IMG/VR virus record: IMGVR_UViG_3300005262_000102
Span: 1-36,134 of that record
Length of the DNA stretch: 36,134 nucleotides
Strand: one strand, 5' to 3'
Origin: a virus
Shown piece by piece: positions 2,720 through 30,533 of this stretch (the first letter of the stretch is position 1; each line of letters opens with the position of its first letter). The translations under genes were made by a program, and so were the position numbers. The notes under the pieces were generated by a model. The model was not told the DNA's origin, did no database searches, and was given only the letters and a program-made list of their open reading frames with translations.

Positions 2720-3222
2720 TGCACACCTCCGCGACAAATAGGGAGTTCGGTTACCGACGTGATGCCTAAAATAAACCCAAACCCTTTCGCGTCATTAAAC
2801 CATTTTACAATTCCGGTTTGCATACGCTGCCTTCATCCTTCGTGACATGTGGTCGAGTTATGACGAGCGCCAAACTGCCGAAAGGCACAATTCGAAGAGG
2901 GCGGTCCGGGAAGAATGTGCGACAACTAGCGGAAGCAGCCAGCAATGTGAGGACTTGGCGGAACGTGAATCCAGCATATACCCATACGATACGATTCCCT
3001 AACGCTTTCTCAACTTCTTTTGCGATCATCCTGATTTGCCGTCAAAATCGTTTGCTAGGACATGCTCCAATATTCCACTGGGAATCGTTCGCCCTGACGC
3101 TTTGATTGATGTTAGACTAAGGGTCTATATCTGAGGGGCTGTTAAGGGGCGGTAGCTGTCTCGCAATCGACACTCCATGTCATATCAAGTTTGAGCCAGT
3201 ACATCTGACTTGTAGGCATGAC
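2720..3222. other. Gap without a supported gene
   Basis: About 500 bp between the 2522-2719 gene and the receiver gene. Open frames exist on both strands (for example 2805-3029 on - and 2860-3105 on +), but neither has a convincing ribosome-binding site or a recognisable protein. I see no tRNA, terminator with a T-run or repeat here. Confidence 0.4.
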
Positions 3223-3618
3223 CTAGCGCTGCTCCCCCCTCGCCCGGACTACTGCCCGTTGTATAACCTCCAACAACTCATGCACCTGGGCGGGCTTGGT
3301 TAGCCAGTGAGAAAAGCCACCAAAAGGCAGGGCACGCTCTACATCATGTCCACCCCATCCCGACAAAGCCACAATTGGTACGTGCTGGCGACCAGGAACA
3401 GCCCTCATTGCCTTCGCCGTCTCGAAGCCATCCATACCGGGCATACGGATATCGAGCAAAACCAAATTCGCATCCCATGCCATAAACATCGCTAGCCCAT
3501 CTTCGCCACTGTACGTCACGCGATTTTCAATGCCGTAGCCAGTGAGCAACTCCGACAGCATATCCACGGCGTCGATGTTGTCATCAACGAGGAGAACCTT
3601 GGGGTTGATATTGTTCAC
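3223..3618 (-). CDS. Stand-alone response-regulator receiver protein
   Basis: 131-aa single-domain CheY-like receiver. The acidic pocket D12/D13, phosphoacceptor D56 (L-L-D-I-R-M-P-G-M-D-G), conserved S86 (A-L-S-G) and K108-P109 (L-T-K-P) are all present, so it should be phosphorylatable. No output domain follows; the protein ends after alpha-5. It starts at GTG 3618 with AAGG about eleven bases upstream. No histidine kinase is encoded in the window, so any partner must be in the host. A receiver is not part of the standard phage gene set, so this looks like a captured host gene (lysogenic-conversion cargo). The call is secure at domain level; its pathway is unknown. Confidence 0.9.
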   Translation of the reverse strand: MNNINPKVLLVDDNIDAVDMLSELLTGYGIENRVTYSGEDGLAMFMAWDANLVLLDIRMPGMDGFETAKAMRAVPGRQHVPIVALSGWGGHDVERALPFGGFSHWLTKPAQVHELLEVIQRAVVRARGEQR

Positions 3619-3784
3619 AGCTGTTCAACCTTGTCTCTCCTGGAAGTAATTCAATATACCTTGCTCTTCTCTCGCTCGCCGCACCGCAGCACGTACTTGC
3701 AGTGCTCAAAATTCTTCCCCAAACTGGAAATCGGTTTGAGGCAGATCAAAATCCGCTCAAATTCACTATGCTAGGGTTTACGGC

Positions 3785-3958
3785 ATGGACCTCAAGAGAA
3801 GAATGCACGCAGTCGCCTTGGAGCTGGCCCGTTCACATGGGGTCGCTTTTGCTCGGGCATTTTTCGAAGAGCACTACGCTACAATTAGGAGAACCAAACT
3901 GCAGCGAGACAGCCGTGTGCACAAACTACCGCCCTCCGGACAAGGATCTCCTCGCTAA
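3785..3958 (+). CDS. Short hypothetical protein (57 aa)
   Basis: Small open frame with ATG at 3785 and AGGG eight bases upstream. The product is basic and strongly helical in its first forty residues (K-R-R-M-H-A-V-A-L-E-L-A-R-S-H-G). A longer overlapping frame at 3702-3992 on the same strand has a less protein-like composition, so I prefer this one. It lies alone between the receiver gene and the 4162 gene. Function unknown; support is the ribosome-binding site and composition only. Confidence 0.4.
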   Translation: MDLKRRMHAVALELARSHGVAFARAFFEEHYATIRRTKLQRDSRVHKLPPSGQGSPR

Positions 3959-4019
3959 TGTCTTGGGCAGGTTGGTCGATCTGCTGACTTAGGCTGGCTC
4001 CCGAACCGCTCAACCGCCG

Positions 4020-4096
4020 CTTCAATCTCCGATTGAAAGCGTTTAGTGCGCAGACGTCTGCACACTCGTCAATCGACTTTCTCCCTTGCCGATTGA
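4020..4096. repeat. Two small inverted repeats flanking palindrome copy 1
   Basis: A near-perfect stem-loop (CAATC-tcc-GATTG, extending to GCTT/AAAGC) lies at about 4020-4040. A second pair, TCAATCG (4069-4075) and CGATTGA (4090-4096), follows it. The 16-bp dispersed palindrome sits between them. The word CGATTGAAAG occurs in both elements. The cluster lies directly upstream of the promoter-like TATACT for the 4162 gene, so it may be regulatory; this is inferred from position only. Confidence 0.4.
4048..4063. repeat. Dispersed palindrome, copy 1 (intergenic)
   Basis: GCGCAGACGTCTGCAC: one mismatch (T to C at position 2) from the 16-bp consensus GTGCAGACGTCTGCAC. Lies about 100 bp upstream of the 4162 gene. 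Confidence 0.85.
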
Positions 4097-4126
4097 AAGA
4101 AACTGCAACAATGTGTCTTAGGTCGC

Positions 4127-4132
4127 TATACT
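4127..4132 (+). promoter_or_regulatory. Probable -10 element of the 4162 gene
   Basis: TATACT embedded in CGCTATACTGAA, about 30 bp before the start codon. The same twelve-base word occurs upstream of the paralogous gene at 5430. The -35 is poor. The match between the two paralogues is the main support. Confidence 0.45.
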
Positions 4133-4161
4133 GAACTTAATACACTTTCCGGGAGCGAATC

Positions 4162-4401
4162 ATGGCCACCGTCCCAAGTGCTGACAGGAGACGCGACCAC
4201 GTTACGGCGTTACACGTCCACCAGGGTATCTCAATTTCCCACCTCACGAGTGCAGCAGAGGCGATCCGAGCAATGGTGGTGGCCGGCGTGCCTCAACACG
4301 TAATTACCCGAGTAACCAGTGGTTTTGAGATGCAGCGACGCAGGGACAGCCGTTCGATATGGCCCGGTACAGACAGACGTCAACAAACAGCCGAGCAGTA
4401 G
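4162..4401 (+). CDS. Small conserved protein, paralogue of the 5430 gene (copy A)
   Basis: 79 aa from ATG 4162, with CGGGAG seven bases upstream. It is clearly homologous along most of its length to the protein at 5430. Shared features are R-R-x-D-x-V-T-A-L-H-V near the N terminus, G-I-S-I-x-H-L, G-V-P-x-H-V-I-x-R, M-Q-R-R-R and W-P-G-x-D-R-R at the C terminus. It is probably cytoplasmic and helical, with no membrane segment. The second helical block (V-P-x-H-V-I-x-R-x-x-S-G) could be a helix-turn-helix-like segment, but that is a guess. It has its own promoter-like element and is followed five bases later by a copy of the dispersed palindrome. Function unknown. Confidence 0.65.
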   Translation: MATVPSADRRRDHVTALHVHQGISISHLTSAAEAIRAMVVAGVPQHVITRVTSGFEMQRRRDSRSIWPGTDRRQQTAEQ

Positions 4402-4405
4402 CCAT

Positions 4406-4421
4406 GTGCAGACGTCTGCAC
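4406..4421. repeat. Dispersed palindrome, copy 2 (intergenic)
   Basis: Perfect 16-bp consensus, between the end of the 4162 gene and the end of the broken methylase, which is convergent to it. No T-run follows, so it is not a standard terminator. Confidence 0.9.
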
Positions 4422-4432
4422 TCCTTACCGAA

Positions 4433-5224
4433 TCAGAACAAGCCAGGCGGCTCAGCAGTGCGGTCCCAGCTGTAAATGATCAGCTCCTTGCGGTCCGCCG
4501 CCTTTGCTCCCCCACCGACCGTGTACGCTATGTCGGTGCTATCCATCTGGAACGCGAGAACACGCGTCGGATGTCCGGATGATCGTTCAAGCTTAGTATC
4601 GCCTTCCCCTTCAGCCGCGCCATAAGCTCAGCCATCCGCTCGTACTCAGTTAGCGGAAAATCTACGCCATAGCCTTCGGTCTGCCAGTACGGCGGATCTA
4701 GGTAGAACAGCGTATGAGGCCTGTCATACCGCTCCATGCATTTGTGCCAGTCCATGTTCTCGATATAGGCGCCAGCCAGCCTCAGGTGCGCCGCTGACAA
4801 GTTCTCTTCAATGCGCAGCAGGTTGACGGGAGGTGCTGTCGTCTCAGTGCCCCAGTTCTGCCCATGCACCTTGCCGCCGAAGGCATGCTGCTGGAGGTAG
4901 AAAAAGCGCGCGGCACGCTGGATATCGGTAAGGGTGTGCGGCGGCGTCTCCTGCAGCCACTTGAACACATCACGGCTGGAGAGCGCGTATTTGAACTGGC
5001 GGACGAACTCTTCCAGGTGATTTTTGACGACCCGGTACAGATTCACCAGTTCGCCGTTGATGTCGTTGATCACCTCGACGTCTGCCGGCGGCCGCATGAA
5101 GAACAGCGCGCCGCCGCCGGCGAAGACTTCGACGTAGCAGGTGTGGGAGGGAATTGGGAAAAGAGACGGTCGGCCAGGCGTCGCTTGCGCCGATCCAAGG
5201 GATGATTGGTAATGGTGTTGCCAA
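4433..5224 (-). pseudogene. D12-class DNA adenine-N6 methyltransferase, three frameshifts
   Basis: Remnant of a phage-type Dam-like methylase (MethyltransfD12, about 264 aa if intact). The intended start is TTG 5224, preceded by AAAGG. The first frame gives P-I-I-P-W-I-G, then a one-base loss near 5187-5191 hides G-K-R-R-L-A-D. A second loss near 5145-5147 precedes C-Y-V-E-V-F-A-G-G-G. The central frame (4528-5097) carries V-I-N-D-I-N-G-E and catalytic motif IV D-P-P-Y at about 4687-4698. A third loss near 4554-4556 separates Y-T-V-G-G-G and the C-terminal E-P-P-G-L-F, which ends at 4433. Three lesions within 0.8 kb argue for a decayed gene rather than chance sequencing error. As it stands no active enzyme is expected. 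Confidence 0.85.
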
Positions 5225-5394
5225 GAGTAAACCTTTAAATGCTATCTGTGCTAGACTTCCGCCGCCTCGCGAAGTAGCAGAGCCTTGCTCGGTTCACTGG
5301 CCCTATCAGTGGATTGAGGCTCGGGCGTGCTGTTGACGCAGCACGTCTGAGCGCTCTGTTTTTTAGGGATATTTCCCTTTTGTTTCACTAGCGC

Positions 5395-5400
5395 TATACT
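5395..5400 (+). promoter_or_regulatory. Probable -10 element of the 5430 gene
   Basis: TATACT within CGCTATACTGAA, identical in twelve bases to the element before the 4162 gene and about 30 bp from the start codon. The -35 region is weak. Confidence 0.45.
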
Positions 5401-5429
5401 GAAATCCCAACAAGCGCACGGAGAGGATG

Positions 5430-5672
5430 ATGTCTTCCCTGGATGACTACGAACGCAGACACGATGAGGTCACCGCGCTGCATGTTCGATCTGGAATTTC
5501 GATTCAACATCTAGCAGGCAAACTTGAAGCTCGCCGGCATATGGAAGAGACAGGCGTGCCAGCTCATGTTATTGAACGTATTTTGAGCGGAATTGGTATG
5601 CAACGCCGCAGAGTTCCAAGCACGAAATGGCCTGGCGAGGATAGGAGAAAACGCCCGGTTGAAACAGTATAA
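5430..5672 (+). CDS. Small conserved protein, paralogue of the 4162 gene (copy B)
   Basis: 80 aa. Two adjacent ATG codons (5427 and 5430) follow GGAGAGG; the second has the better spacing. It aligns with the 4162 product from R-R-H-D-E-V-T-A-L-H-V through G-V-P-A-H-V-I-E-R-I-L-S-G, M-Q-R-R-R and W-P-G-E-D-R-R. DNA identity between the copies looks only moderate, so the duplication is old or the copies arrived separately. It lies convergent to the lysis genes ending at 5689 and upstream of the broken methylase on the opposite strand. Function unknown. The conservation of two copies suggests selection on the protein. Confidence 0.7.
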   Translation: MSSLDDYERRHDEVTALHVRSGISIQHLAGKLEARRHMEETGVPAHVIERILSGIGMQRRRVPSTKWPGEDRRKRPVETV

Positions 5673-5688
5673 ATCCAGCTTCCTGCAG

Positions 5689-6204
5689 TCACTTCAGTAG
5701 TTCTTGCTGTTGTCGATAGAACTGCCTCAAGCCGAGGGCTTGCTCGCGCCAGGCGCGGCAGACGGTCGCGTTGAAGACGTCGGTTTCCGCGACTTCAGAG
5801 AGCGGAATGCCGGCGGATTCTCGGTCAACGTCTGAGGCAGGTCCGGGATCGTCACCTGCCCAGGCGGCGTTATATGCGCGCACGAAGCCAACATTGACGC
5901 CATACACAGCATCGTCAGCAGGCGTGACGAACACAGGGACTTGTTTTTCAATCACTTCTCCTTTCAGGTAGATTTTCTGGATGCGGTCGCGGTACTTGAT
6001 TTCGGTCTGCACCACGACCTTGGTCTGCGCCTTGCCGATGGCCACGGTGCGCTCTGCCTGCGCGGCCACGTAATCGAGGTGCTGCTGGCCAGCGCACCGC
6101 TCGCCCTGCAGCAGGCCCAACACATAGACCACCGCCCCCAGGGCGAGCACCAGCAACAGCCGCGCCCACGATGGCACCACAGCGTCACTAAGTTTGTTGA
6201 ACAT
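5689..6204 (-). CDS. Rz-like inner-membrane spanin subunit
   Basis: 171-aa i-spanin candidate that would join the o-spanin to disrupt the outer membrane at the end of lysis. An N-terminal membrane segment (about residues 14-33, L-L-L-V-L-A-L-G-A-V-V-Y-V-L-G-L-L) is followed by a periplasmic, charge-rich helical region (Q-A-E-R-T-V-A-I-G-K-A-Q-T-K). The gene starts 17 bp inside the end of the lysozyme gene. It completely contains a lipoprotein gene in another frame, the hallmark of Rz/Rz1 pairs. The call rests on architecture and position rather than strong sequence similarity. Confidence 0.8.
   Translation of the reverse strand: MFNKLSDAVVPSWARLLLVLALGAVVYVLGLLQGERCAGQQHLDYVAAQAERTVAIGKAQTKVVVQTEIKYRDRIQKIYLKGEVIEKQVPVFVTPADDAVYGVNVGFVRAYNAAWAGDDPGPASDVDRESAGIPLSEVAETDVFNATVCRAWREQALGLRQFYRQQQELLK
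5727..5951 (-). CDS. Rz1-like outer-membrane spanin lipoprotein, nested in Rz
   Basis: 74 aa, read in a different frame and wholly inside the Rz-like gene. It has a basic start, a short hydrophobic segment and a lipobox (M-L-A-S-C) near residue 24. The mature part is proline-rich (T-P-P-G...I-P-D-L-P...N-P-P), as expected for o-spanins. It would be lipidated at the Cys, sorted to the outer membrane, and bind the Rz C terminus. Confidence 0.8.
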   Translation of the reverse strand: MKNKSLCSSRLLTMLCMASMLASCAHITPPGQVTIPDLPQTLTENPPAFRSLKSRKPTSSTRPSAAPGASKPSA

Positions 6205-6712
6205 GTGGCACCCTCCATTCGAAAGTCCTTGCCGTATGCGCGCCAGCCAGCGGCTGCTCGCCCAGGCAGATCCGGCGCTCGAACTGGCGGCGCCTGGTCA
6301 GCCCCGCAACCTGTTTGCCGCCTGCGTGATCCCATGCCAGCAGACCGTTGCACGCGCCGACGTGGTCGCCCTGGTTCAGCTTCTTGAGCAACGAGGAACC
6401 GCAGAAGGCGCCCGCGCCGACGTTGTAGGTGAACAGCACATAGGCGTCGTATTCATGCTGAGCGATCGGCACCCGCAGACAGCGCAACACCGCCGCGCCC
6501 TTCTCCGCCAACTGCGACTCCGTCAGCGCCTTGCACTCGGCCGCCGTATAGACCCTGGTGCGGTCCACGTCCTTGCCGGCGTAGCCCTGGCACACCGTCC
6601 ACACATTCACGACGTCCTCATAGGGCACGTAGCGCGTACCCTCCAGCGAGGTGAGCGCCGCCACCAGCGCAGCGCTCACCAGGGTCAGCCCGAAGCGGTT
6701 AGACGGGCTCAT
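6188..6712 (-). CDS. Endolysin, glycoside hydrolase family 24 lysozyme with SAR-like N terminus
   Basis: 174-aa phage lysozyme that cleaves peptidoglycan glycan strands. The catalytic triad spacing of the T4/P21 type is intact: E24-x8-D33-x5-T39 (L-E-G-T-R-Y...D-V-V-N-V-W-T). The first ~22 residues form a weakly hydrophobic Ala/Leu/Ser-rich segment typical of a signal-anchor-release domain, suggesting Sec export and holin- or pinholin-controlled activation. Cysteines such as C41 may regulate or stabilise the fold. It overlaps the holin gene by 14 bp and the Rz gene by 17 bp in a compact lysis cassette. Confidence 0.92.
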   Translation of the reverse strand: MSPSNRFGLTLVSAALVAALTSLEGTRYVPYEDVVNVWTVCQGYAGKDVDRTRVYTAAECKALTESQLAEKGAAVLRCLRVPIAQHEYDAYVLFTYNVGAGAFCGSSLLKKLNQGDHVGACNGLLAWDHAGGKQVAGLTRRRQFERRICLGEQPLAGAHTARTFEWRVPHVQQT

Positions 6713-26095: not shown

Positions 26096-26635
26096 CTATT
26101 TTTCGACAGCAGCGGAATGAATCGCGTCAACGCTACCTACTTTCGCCAGGATCGCCTTGATGTCGCGCTCGGCTTTCGACACCACCAGTTCGACGTGTGG
26201 ACCGCGCACGCCCTTGAGGAAGCGACGCAGTTGCGACACCGGCCAGCGCTGAATGTAGAGGCACTTCAGCGCCTGCCGCGCGTTGTTGTCGCCGAGGGTG
26301 CGCCATGCCGCCTCCACCAGCCAGCCGTCCAGTTCATCGGCTGAGACCAGCGGGCTCAAGGGTTTGATCCGCTCATCCATCACGTCGCTGGCCGGCGCAG
26401 CTTCCGACGTACGCAACTGGACGTACAGCTTCGCCCAGCCAGCGCAATACTGCGACGCGCCACCGGCGGACGCCTTGCCATGCACCACCTTGCGCCAGTT
26501 CTCCATGCGCGCCAGGAACTGCTCCTGCTGCCGCGATGCACACCCGCCGGCCTCAGTGCGCGGACGCGGCGCCACGTTCAATTCAGCCTCAACCTCGGAA
26601 AACTTCATCCCACCCACCTCAATCTCCACGCCCAT
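26096..26635 (-). CDS. Possible late-gene regulator (Q-position protein)
   Basis: 179 aa from ATG 26635 (AAAGG), or possibly from the later in-frame ATG 26608 (GAGGTGGG). The C-terminal third (L-G-D-N-N-A-R-Q-A-L-K-C-L-Y...R-F-L...V-V-S-K-A-E-R-D-I-K-A-I-L) has the spacing of a sigma-region-4/antiterminator-Q-like helix-turn-helix ending in an A-E-R-x-I helix. It lies at the junction between replication and late genes, directly before a strong hairpin, which is where Q is expected. The family assignment is not certain. Confidence 0.5.
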   Translation of the reverse strand: MGVEIEVGGMKFSEVEAELNVAPRPRTEAGGCASRQQEQFLARMENWRKVVHGKASAGGASQYCAGWAKLYVQLRTSEAAPASDVMDERIKPLSPLVSADELDGWLVEAAWRTLGDNNARQALKCLYIQRWPVSQLRRFLKGVRGPHVELVVSKAERDIKAILAKVGSVDAIHSAAVEK

Positions 26636-26679: not shown

Positions 26680-26938
26680 CCGTCTAACCTCAAGAAGGTT
26701 GGCCTTTTAGGTTAGACGGCTACAACCCGCATCAATGCTATGTCTGTCTAACCTCCTAACCCGTCTGACTCATTTTCAATGTTTGCAAATGCACACCGAG
26801 TCATAGCTGTCCGTCGCGCACGTATACGCGTGACGCGCATATGCGTGCGCGGCTTGGTTGGCGAGGTTGGACGGTTGGACGAAGCCTTTATCCATGCGGG
26901 TTTCGGCCGTCTAACCTCAGAATATGCAGGTTGGACGG
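26680..26938. repeat. Iteron-like array AGGTTRGACGG, candidate replication origin
   Basis: Five perfect copies of AGGTTRGACGG in mixed orientation: 26680-26690 (-), 26709-26719 (+), 26864-26874 (+), 26907-26917 (-) and 26928-26938 (+). Weaker copies lie at 26744-26754 (-), 26761-26771 (-) and 26872-26882 (+). The clusters flank an inverted repeat at 26816-26850. The array lies next to the replication primase-helicase gene, the usual place for a phage or P4-like origin. Not a CRISPR: spacing is irregular and orientation is mixed. Confidence 0.7.
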
Positions 26939-27074
26939 ATTGCCCAAGATAGGCGAATGGACTGGCTTCAAAGGCCAACGCCATCACCTTTTCCGCACGC
27001 GGATATTCCGCACACGATCCCTGGTGAGGCGCAGGCATTGCGCCGCGCTTCTGATTGATCTGGCCGACGCTCAT
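26748..27074 (-). CDS. Hypothetical small protein overlapping the iteron array
   Basis: 108-aa frame starting at ATG 27074 in a 4-bp ATGA overlap with the primase stop. This is the same coupling seen at most junctions here and the main reason to believe it. The first ~60 residues look protein-like (R-A-E-K-V-M-A-L-A-F-E-A-S-P-F-A-Y-L). The remainder is Arg/Thr-rich and is encoded by the repeat array, so the true product may be shorter in related phages. Function unknown. Confidence 0.4.
   Translation of the reverse strand: MSVGQINQKRGAMPAPHQGSCAEYPRAEKVMALAFEASPFAYLGQSVQPAYSEVRRPKPAWIKASSNRPTSPTKPRTHMRVTRIRARRTAMTRCAFANIENESDGLGG
26816..26850. repeat. GC-rich inverted repeat within the iteron array
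   Basis: Fifteen-base arms GCGCACGTATACGCG and CGCATATGCGTGCGC pair with two mismatches across a five-base spacer. It is centred between the left and right repeat clusters. It could extrude a cruciform or hairpin acting as an initiator, primosome or termination site. Confidence 0.65.
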
Positions 27075-29581
27075 TGCGCGTCTCCATGGCTGTCCACCCC
27101 TTGCTCCGCTTCCGCAGCAGGACGCTCGTAATACCACTCGCGCGCACCACCCGTCTCTCGCTTCTTGATCCAGCCGAACTTGCGCATGATCGCGCCCACG
27201 CGCATGGTCTCCGCCCTGGCCGGCCCGAGCTTGGACATCTCGAAATGGAGCGCCTTGGTGAGCAGCTCCCGTGCCGTGACGCTCTTGAGCTTCCCCGAAA
27301 GTGTTGGCTTCCCGTCCGAGTCTTTCCCCTCCACATACTCGTAAAGGCGGCCGCGCCACGGATCAGGAATTTCCCGGTCATCCTGCATCGGATCGATCAG
27401 GCGGCGCTGCTGATCAAATGTTGGCCACCATTGCACGCCAGTCTTCATCAGCGCAATGGCCTCACCGAACAGGTGGTCCCGATCCGCCTTCAGAGCCTCG
27501 ATGTCGATCTTGCCCGTGTTAACTGGCCAGAACCGCCTATTGCCCGTCGAGTCCTTGAAATATGCATCCTCGTTGGTCGTCGCTGCGAAGGCGCACCGAC
27601 GCGGGACACTCTTCATACGGCGACCGTACGGCTCCCGGAAACGATCCACCGTGCTGGACATAAACGCTTTAATAGCAGTGACTTCAGAGCGGTTGAATTG
27701 CTCCAGTTCGGCCACCTCGTACAGTAGGACACCCTGGATCGACAGATAGCCGTCCTTCTCCCCCATCCTGAACGGCGTGTCCGCGAACCAGTCACCACCC
27801 AACACTTTCAATGCCGTGGACTTACCTTGACCTTGCCCGCCCTCAAATACCGGAGCGTGGTCATTTTTCACGCCCGGCTTGTAGCCGCGCATGACGATGC
27901 CGATAAAGAACATGGTCGATACGAGACGCATGTACTCGGAGTCGTCGGCGCTCCAGTAACGCGTCAACGCTGTCGCGACGCGCTGCTGGCCATCCCACGA
28001 TGCCGCGCAGTGGTCCAGATAGTCCACAACTGGATCGAAGGCGAACTCTCGGGCGGCCTGAGCAACGCCACGTTCGATGTCACCCATCGCCGCGACGACC
28101 AGTCCATACTTTTTCGCCACGTACATGCCGAGGCGGAAGTCGTCCGACTCCGTCCACTCGCCAGGCGTGGTTGGCCACGGCGCCTTGCGCCGCTTGACTT
28201 GCAGTCCGGAAAAAAGATCTAGGGCGACGAGGCCACGCAGCTCCTTGTCATGCTGCATGACCAAGTACACGTTCTCTCGACACCCCTTCACACCACCGTT
28301 TGCAGTCGCGATCAGGTTGTCCCGCAAGGAGCCATGTAGCTCATCGCCTGCGCCAGCCGGTAAAGGGGTAGAAGCGGAATCGAATTGGTCCGCCATCTGC
28401 TCTCTCACCCACGCCGGCACAGCATCGGCTGTGGGCTGGTTCGGAAGCTGCTGTGCCTCTTGAGCAGATGCCAATGCAGGGCGCAGCTTCGTAGTCCAGG
28501 CAATGACCTCCTCCTCGGTTGCCCCGCCGTCGATCAGGTCAGCGATGTCCCAGCCATCTGGCAACTCGCCTGGCGCAGGAATGTCCACCATGAACACGTT
28601 GCAGCCCTGCGCACCCAGGATTTCAGCGATCTTAATCATCGCACTCACACCTGGCTGCTCGTGCTCTGGTATGAGCTGGCCTGCATGCTCGTGCCCCTCC
28701 TTGTACCGTTTCGCATCCGCGTCCGGCCACAGAATCACATCACGATTGCAAATGGCTGACCAATCCGCCTTCTTCACCGCCTTGCTGCCACCCGACCAGG
28801 AAACCACTTCGAATGCGTCATGAACCGTAGGCATCGACACGGCGCGGTCCACACACTTCTCACCCTCAACAACAAGCACCGGCACGTCCATACGCTGCGG
28901 GCCGCGCTGATACAGCGGGCGAGGCTCAGGAAACGCAAGCCATCGCCATTCGGACGCACCGGTATCAGCTCGCTTTGCGTACACGCATGGCAGCACTTCC
29001 TTGCCTTTGCCGTCGGAACGGATGAAGCGGAAGACTACACCAAGCAGCCTCCCTTCAGCGTCGCGGTATTCCCAACTGGCTTCCGGACGACCACGTACGA
29101 CGTGTGCCTTAGGGTACGGGCCAGCAGAGTCCGGCACAGGCAAGATAGGGGTCCACGGCGTGCGTTTTTTTTCCTCGGCAGGTGCTTCTACCCCTTTGTC
29201 CGCTTGCGCAGGCGCGTGATTAGGTCGTGGTTGCACCAGCTTAATAGGTGCCTTCGGCTTACCTTTATGCGTACCGGTATCGGAAAGGGTGATGGAGAGC
29301 CGCTCGGCGAGCGCTTTGCACGCTTGACCAGGCTTCAAGTCGTGGATAAAGGCATAAAGCGAGATTAGATCGCCGCCGGCTGCGCCGTCGGAAAAATCTG
29401 ACCAAACCCCGGCCTTGTCCCCTGTAAGGCGCACGCGCAAAGACTGCCCTGCTTCGCCAGCTCGCGAACCAACGCAATACTCGCTCCCCTCCTTTACGCC
29501 GTTCGGGAACCACTCCTGAAGGAGTGTATGAATAGAGTCGAGCGCTACGCGCCCGACTAAGGAAAAATCGTCCAGCGTCAC
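27071..29581 (-). CDS. Phage replication primase-helicase (toprim plus VirE/SF3-like ATPase)
   Basis: 836 aa from ATG 29581, overlapping the upstream stop as ATGA. The N-terminal ~130 residues resemble a primase-associated nucleic-acid-binding domain. A toprim-like segment begins near residue 235 (V-L-V-V-E-G-E-K-C-V-D, later W-P-D-A-D-A). The C-terminal VirE-type ATPase has Walker A G-G-Q-G-Q-G-K-S-T near 579-587, then E-V-A-E-L, and sensor-like A-A-T-T-N-E-D-A-Y-F and N-R-R-F-W-P. It should prime and unwind the phage origin, probably the adjacent repeat array. No separate helicase loader or polymerase is encoded, so the host replisome would complete synthesis. Confidence 0.92.
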   Translation of the reverse strand: MTLDDFSLVGRVALDSIHTLLQEWFPNGVKEGSEYCVGSRAGEAGQSLRVRLTGDKAGVWSDFSDGAAGGDLISLYAFIHDLKPGQACKALAERLSITLSDTGTHKGKPKAPIKLVQPRPNHAPAQADKGVEAPAEEKKRTPWTPILPVPDSAGPYPKAHVVRGRPEASWEYRDAEGRLLGVVFRFIRSDGKGKEVLPCVYAKRADTGASEWRWLAFPEPRPLYQRGPQRMDVPVLVVEGEKCVDRAVSMPTVHDAFEVVSWSGGSKAVKKADWSAICNRDVILWPDADAKRYKEGHEHAGQLIPEHEQPGVSAMIKIAEILGAQGCNVFMVDIPAPGELPDGWDIADLIDGGATEEEVIAWTTKLRPALASAQEAQQLPNQPTADAVPAWVREQMADQFDSASTPLPAGAGDELHGSLRDNLIATANGGVKGCRENVYLVMQHDKELRGLVALDLFSGLQVKRRKAPWPTTPGEWTESDDFRLGMYVAKKYGLVVAAMGDIERGVAQAAREFAFDPVVDYLDHCAASWDGQQRVATALTRYWSADDSEYMRLVSTMFFIGIVMRGYKPGVKNDHAPVFEGGQGQGKSTALKVLGGDWFADTPFRMGEKDGYLSIQGVLLYEVAELEQFNRSEVTAIKAFMSSTVDRFREPYGRRMKSVPRRCAFAATTNEDAYFKDSTGNRRFWPVNTGKIDIEALKADRDHLFGEAIALMKTGVQWWPTFDQQRRLIDPMQDDREIPDPWRGRLYEYVEGKDSDGKPTLSGKLKSVTARELLTKALHFEMSKLGPARAETMRVGAIMRKFGWIKKRETGGAREWYYERPAAEAEQGVDSHGDAQ

Positions 29582-30089: not shown

Positions 30090-30533
30090 TTACTTCTCGG
30101 CCATTTCTTCCAAGCGTGCCGCCAGCTGCTGCATGGCTTGATTCGTTCGATAAATGGCAGCCCTCACGCGCTCGATTTCCTCTCGGTCCACACGACCATC
30201 CGCCAACGTGCGGTTGACTTCTGTTCCAACGTCGCCATTGCTGGTCCAAACCTGCGTCACGAGTTCTAATACAGCCAAGTCAGAGGAGACCGCATCTGCA
30301 TCAACCCGAACGCATACATGGCTGTGATTTGCAGCGAGCGCATGTAAAACGCTCATATCTCCGGTGAGACCCATTGCGCGATCCACATCCTCTAACGTGG
30401 GCTTGTTACTGAGTGAGTTGACATTGGCCTTATTGCGCAGGATTGCCGCAGACAGTCCCATACGCGGAGCAAGCGCCTCGCATCCCCCAGGAGTTCCATG
30501 CACTGTTTGGTAGAAAGCATCAAAAACGTTCAT
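30090..30533 (-). CDS. Phage regulatory protein CII (CP76 family)
   Basis: 147 aa from ATG 30533, with AGG seven bases upstream. The family pattern is clear: a start of V-F-D-A-F-Y-Q-T-V-H, then G-G-C-E-A-L-A-P-R-M-G-L-S-A-A-I-L-R-N-K, a helix-turn-helix-type region, and a C-terminal V-R-A-A-I-Y-R-T-N-Q-A-M-Q-Q-L helix. CP76 proteins in related prophages influence the lysis-lysogeny choice by activating repressor or integrase promoters. It follows the Cro-position gene in the leftward early operon. Confidence 0.88.
   Translation of the reverse strand: MNVFDAFYQTVHGTPGGCEALAPRMGLSAAILRNKANVNSLSNKPTLEDVDRAMGLTGDMSVLHALAANHSHVCVRVDADAVSSDLAVLELVTQVWTSNGDVGTEVNRTLADGRVDREEIERVRAAIYRTNQAMQQLAARLEEMAEK

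Follow-up and report, generated by a model that had tools for sequence, protein, structure and literature searches.

What is the function of the short repeats that lie directly behind a primase-helicase gene in the viral record IMGVR_UViG_3300005262_000102? In a sequence-only reading of this DNA the repeats, AGGTTRGACGG in both orientations, had been taken for a candidate phage origin. The window analysed here comprises the whole record of 36,134 nucleotides, and comparison with related loci gives a probability of roughly 0.87 that the prophage starts its replication at this array, by means of its own primase-helicase, whose gene is located directly upstream.

The repeats and the adjoining primase-helicase gene

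The array consists of five exact copies of the repeat and three weaker ones, as had been noted from the sequence: 26744 with one mismatch, 26872 with two mismatches and the more degenerate GAGTCAGACGG at ~26761(-) (Table 1). Beyond these five, no exact copy is found in the entire 36,134-bp record, and a reversed control pattern does not occur at all. In 34 non-redundant homologous regions the iteron density amounts to 6.9 per 520 bp versus 0.25 in shuffled sequence, which confirms the AGGTTRGACGG repeats as a genuine and strongly non-random feature.

The array occupies a gap of 435 bp between the primase-helicase gene and the next gene (26096-26635, minus strand). Among 20 relatives, the small open reading frames overlapping the array are mostly interrupted by stop codons or frameshifts, and the gap is therefore non-coding. 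The small reading frame in which the array had appeared to lie is thus spurious, and a coding role for such frames is ruled out by their lack of conservation. The exact DnaA box TTATNCACA is absent from the record, and matches with one mismatch exist, none of them within the gap.

Both domain and structure matches agree with the earlier identification of the neighbouring gene product as a TOPRIM and VirE primase-helicase. Its VapE-like domain is matched by Pfam at 7e-70, and among solved structures the protein comes closest to PriRep1 from a staphylococcal island (PDB code 7pds, sequence E 1.2e-44, fold E 1e-16). The middle part of the protein resembles the DnaG primase core (fold E 1e-4), and the DnaG zinc-finger model is still matched by a few relatives. 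In the structure model, which is of moderate confidence (mean pLDDT 67.6), the C-terminal part is predicted to adopt a winged-helix-like fold. Primase-helicases of the VapE/VirE type are widespread among phages and satellites, with matches in more than 1000 phage records, and a DNA search of the replication half of the window against phages gave no match. A gene for a CII-like (CP76) regulator is located just upstream of the replication genes (30090-30533, minus strand), and likewise in several relatives.

Table 1. Features of the repeat array and its surroundings, in positions of the window.
Feature	Position	Strand	Description
Primase-helicase gene	27071..29581	-	836 aa; adjoins the array
Primase-helicase domains			degenerate DnaG-like zinc region; TOPRIM primase; VapE-like helicase (525-736); predicted C-terminal winged-helix-like part (~740-820)
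Structured element	26983..27028	-	CCAGGGATCG-variable hairpin-CGGAAAAGG; between primase stop codon and half-array A
Parts of the element			outer stem CACC/GGTG; internal loop AGGGAT / GAAAA; variable inner hairpin
Half-array A	26864..26938		iterons 26928(+), 26907(-) and 26864(+), exact; 26872(+), degenerate
Convergent pair of A	26872/26907		35 bp apart
Inner motif of A	26890-26900		ATCCATGCGGG
Alternating purine/pyrimidine tract	26815..26851		37 nt, one break; same site as the hairpin of the sequence-only reading
AT-richer segment of the centre	26772..26814		AT ~0.53 vs 0.40 for the record
Half-array B	26680..26771		mirror of A; iterons 26680(-) and 26709(+), exact; 26744(-) and ~26761(-), degenerate
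Convergent pair of B	26709/26744		35 bp apart
Inner motif of B	26727-26737		CCCGCATCAAT

Mirrored half-arrays and the alternating centre

The iterons are arranged in two half-arrays, which are mirror images of each other on either side of a centre of ~90 bp and, read in the coding direction of the primase gene, follow the order - + (-)- centre + + - +. A convergent pair at 35 bp is present in 21 of the 34 non-redundant loci, while 500 random placements yield a mean of 1.5 and a maximum of 6. Between the paired sites a second short motif is present, which reads CCCGCATGGAT in the close family and is mirrored too. Nearly the same spacing is found with different repeats: Marinobacter phage PS3 carries the iteron GGGTGACC in the spacing -21+35-9- and Pseudomonas phage U5 the iteron GTGGGACA in the spacing -21+34-8-. 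Convergent pairs also occur in two VirE phages of staphylococci, at distances of 35 and 33 bp, as single matches that may have arisen by chance. A convergent 35-bp unit that outlasts the replacement of its iterons points to a rule set by helicase assembly, and this rule would predict where such origins are located.

In the clade formed by L127, L131 and L155 the downstream gap harbors an alternating tract of 28-32 nt with few canonical iterons, and a mirrored inner motif similar to ATAAATCAAT replaces CCCGCATGGAT.

The alternating purine/pyrimidine tract in the centre is the longest in the window. Alternating runs of at least 20 nt are present in 66% of 44 non-redundant origin regions as compared to 0.4% of 5622 background windows, and runs of at least 30 nt in 39% of these regions and in none of the background windows. 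The run sits between both 35-bp units in all 31 loci where both units are recognised, the alternation being conserved while the underlying sequence varies. Its steps are mostly CG/GC and CA/TG, which favour Z-DNA and easy unstacking. With this mainly GC-rich tract and only a modestly AT-richer stretch beside it, the centre is less AT-rich than that of classical origins; origins of the SaPI/PriRep type possess an AT-rich region between the iteron sets. The tract may play a role in origin opening, and it permits a direct test of whether DNA that is Z-prone and not AT-rich can unwind as an origin element.

The hairpin that had been described amid the array coincides with this tract. An inverted repeat indeed exists there (16-nt arms, 88% identity), and its folding beats that of shuffled sequences (z -2.6). 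However, the centre folds below z -2 relative to dinucleotide shuffles in just two of 29 origin regions, the present one included; the hairpin is therefore considered incidental, and a cruciform as a conserved central feature is ruled out.

Association of the array with the primase gene

In all 25 loci retrieved from IMG/VR by a protein search, down to a protein identity of 40%, the array directly follows the primase gene. Conversely, a search of IMG/VR with the repeat pair only, which is blind to the protein, retrieved 28 contigs with an adjacent primase gene in 27 of them; the remaining stretch (L056) begins 150 bases ahead of the repeat pair, and the primase of the same contig is contained in another stretch (L113). 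When the comparison is extended to 80 viral loci and 16 genome loci, with hosts including Duganella, Janthinobacterium and Noviherbaspirillum, the same iteron is found in nearly all, down to ~37% protein identity. The conservation seen in these comparisons establishes that protein and array belong together. Persistence of the repeats beside homologous primases had been named as a test of the candidate origin, which the complete agreement among the 25 relatives supports.

The direct downstream position has one exception, L211, where an insert of 3.4 kb (~2990-6430) with other genes lies between primase and array, and hairpin element, iterons and alternating run are kept together. By eye, the cargo genes of this insert encode one Fic-like and one antirepressor-like protein. 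No such array is recognisable just downstream of the primase in L161 and phage Mica, and VarioGold and Aval show weak repeats only.

An intergenic array with a CII-like regulator encoded upstream could also be an operator array, where a phage regulator would sit on the repeats and control the downstream genes or the primase operon. This is improbable, since the genes beyond the array change among relatives while the array remains with the primase, no sigma-70-like promoter is found in the 435-bp gap, and mirrored halves around a long centre do not correspond to the layout of an operator. The palindromic units and the inverted repeats flanking a centre would be compatible with a partition or recombination site, either centromere-like or for resolution, yet the constant neighbour is a replication initiator and not a partition protein or recombinase, and the integrase is encoded at the opposite end of the record, so that this reading is less probable still. 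A packaging (cos/pac) site with a small terminase bound to the repeats, which for cos would be expected beside the terminase gene at the packaged ends, is highly improbable despite HNH and terminase genes 1-2 kb downstream, as the array tracks the primase, the repeat-only search gave no other location, and the annotated cohesive end of VarioGold is situated beyond the HNH gene, ~2 kb from the primase (an indirect argument, the repeats of VarioGold being weak).

The hairpin element, the proposed initiation and related systems

Apart from the iterons, the region contains a structured element with covarying pairs (Table 1): 31 cells are double-changed versus 10.7 ± 3.3 after shuffling, with none of 500 shuffles as high. 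A compensatory exchange is seen in one clade, which has GATGG...CCGAAAAGG in place of the GATCG...CGGAAAAGG of the others. On the primase-sense strand G-U pairs are frequent, with hardly any of the A-C pairs that would correspond to them on the antisense strand, and thus the structure belongs to this strand, either as RNA or as single-stranded DNA. The corresponding covariance model detects the element at distant origins. In a motif-only scan of IMG/VR the primase is located upstream in 73 of 74 contigs, the remaining one looking like a chance match, and about nine contigs from element-only scans, which lack both an adjacent primase and iterons, resemble chance matches as well. Rfam gave nothing at the gathering threshold for the element, merely chance-level matches up to E 5. 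Two facing iterons make up the inner hairpin itself in a second clade. As the element stays with the array in L211, it is part of the origin region and not merely of the primase message. Tandem copies, two at one origin, are observed in L116 (6126-6226) and L137 (5874-6056).

Large inverted repeats next to an element that behaves as a structured strand might suggest that the entire array is an RNA structure. This is about as improbable as a packaging site: facing iterons show no covariation at their A/G position, many relatives having G in the outer copy and A in its partner, and it is the sequence of the iterons that is conserved, in both orientations and with fixed spacing, like sites for a protein.

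In the preferred reading as a replication origin, the primase-helicase would bind the iterons (AGGTNRGACRG) through its predicted winged-helix domain at the C-terminus, and the mirrored half-arrays, each around its convergent pair, would place two hexamers head to head. Both helicases would then open the centre, aided by the alternating tract and the neighbouring AT-richer stretch, and travel outward, with priming carried out by the TOPRIM domain of the same protein. The hairpin element would act together with the origin and may be a single-strand priming or loading site or a structured RNA, which makes it a candidate for a new structured RNA or primase-loading site.

Phage P4 possesses a primase-helicase fusion with iterons (alpha, ori and crr), the second cis element crr being kilobases away from ori. 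A P4-like layout had originally been assumed for the present locus, which indeed shares the fusion and the iterons; however, here a single bipartite array adjoins the gene, the iteron is different and the helicase domain is of the VapE type. A second, crr-like cis region was not seen in the record, which may be incomplete, and all five exact iterons fall within one cluster of 259 bp. With a helicase nearest to SaPI PriRep1 and one array directly downstream of its gene as in SaPIs, P4 is the looser comparison, and the locus is best read as a replication origin of SaPI/PriRep type.

SaPIs (SaPI5 Rep, PriRep1; 7pds) resemble the present locus in the homologous helicase and in the iterons directly downstream of the gene, and three of their characteristics, a location directly downstream of the initiator gene, a SaPI Rep homologue and multiple short iterons, are found here. 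According to a secondary description, the iterons of SaPI origins follow the helicase gene directly and are bound by the C-terminal domain, apparently by two hexamers (PMC7581432), which the mirrored halves would fit. In SCC origins, too, an iteron array directly follows the gene of the helicase and is bound by the C-terminal domain of that protein (PMC7581432). At the putative origin of SCCmec Cch2, a self-loading helicase binding via its C-terminal domain (PMC7581432), repeats are also located downstream of the helicase gene, there as three short direct repeats, whereas here eight mirrored sites are distributed over two halves. In contrast to the TOPRIM/DnaG-like primase of the present protein, that of SaPI5 belongs to the AEP family according to the same source (PMC7581432). 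Further differences from SaPIs are the other iterons, the GC-rich alternating purine/pyrimidine centre and the covarying hairpin element.

The virE/VapE phages of Staphylococcus and Pseudomonas and Marinobacter phage PS3 share with the present locus iterons immediately downstream of the gene and convergent pairs at 33-35 bp, with one small gene between helicase gene and iterons in the Pseudomonas phage, but their iterons are different and the match to the hairpin element is no better than E 0.5. The literature search yielded no paper on origins of VapE/VirE phages. Within the literature searched, there is about an even chance that these origins share a seemingly undescribed architecture with fixed spacing and swappable iterons, a Z-DNA-prone tract replacing the classical AT-rich unwinding element, and the covarying hairpin CCAGGGATSG...CSGAAAAGG, which would be either a regulatory RNA of the origin or a site dedicated to priming or loading on the single strand. 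Repeats directly after the virE/helicase gene are also seen in phages of Staphylococcus, Paenibacillus, Acutalibacter and a gut host (L065, L223-L226), their sequence differing from phage to phage.
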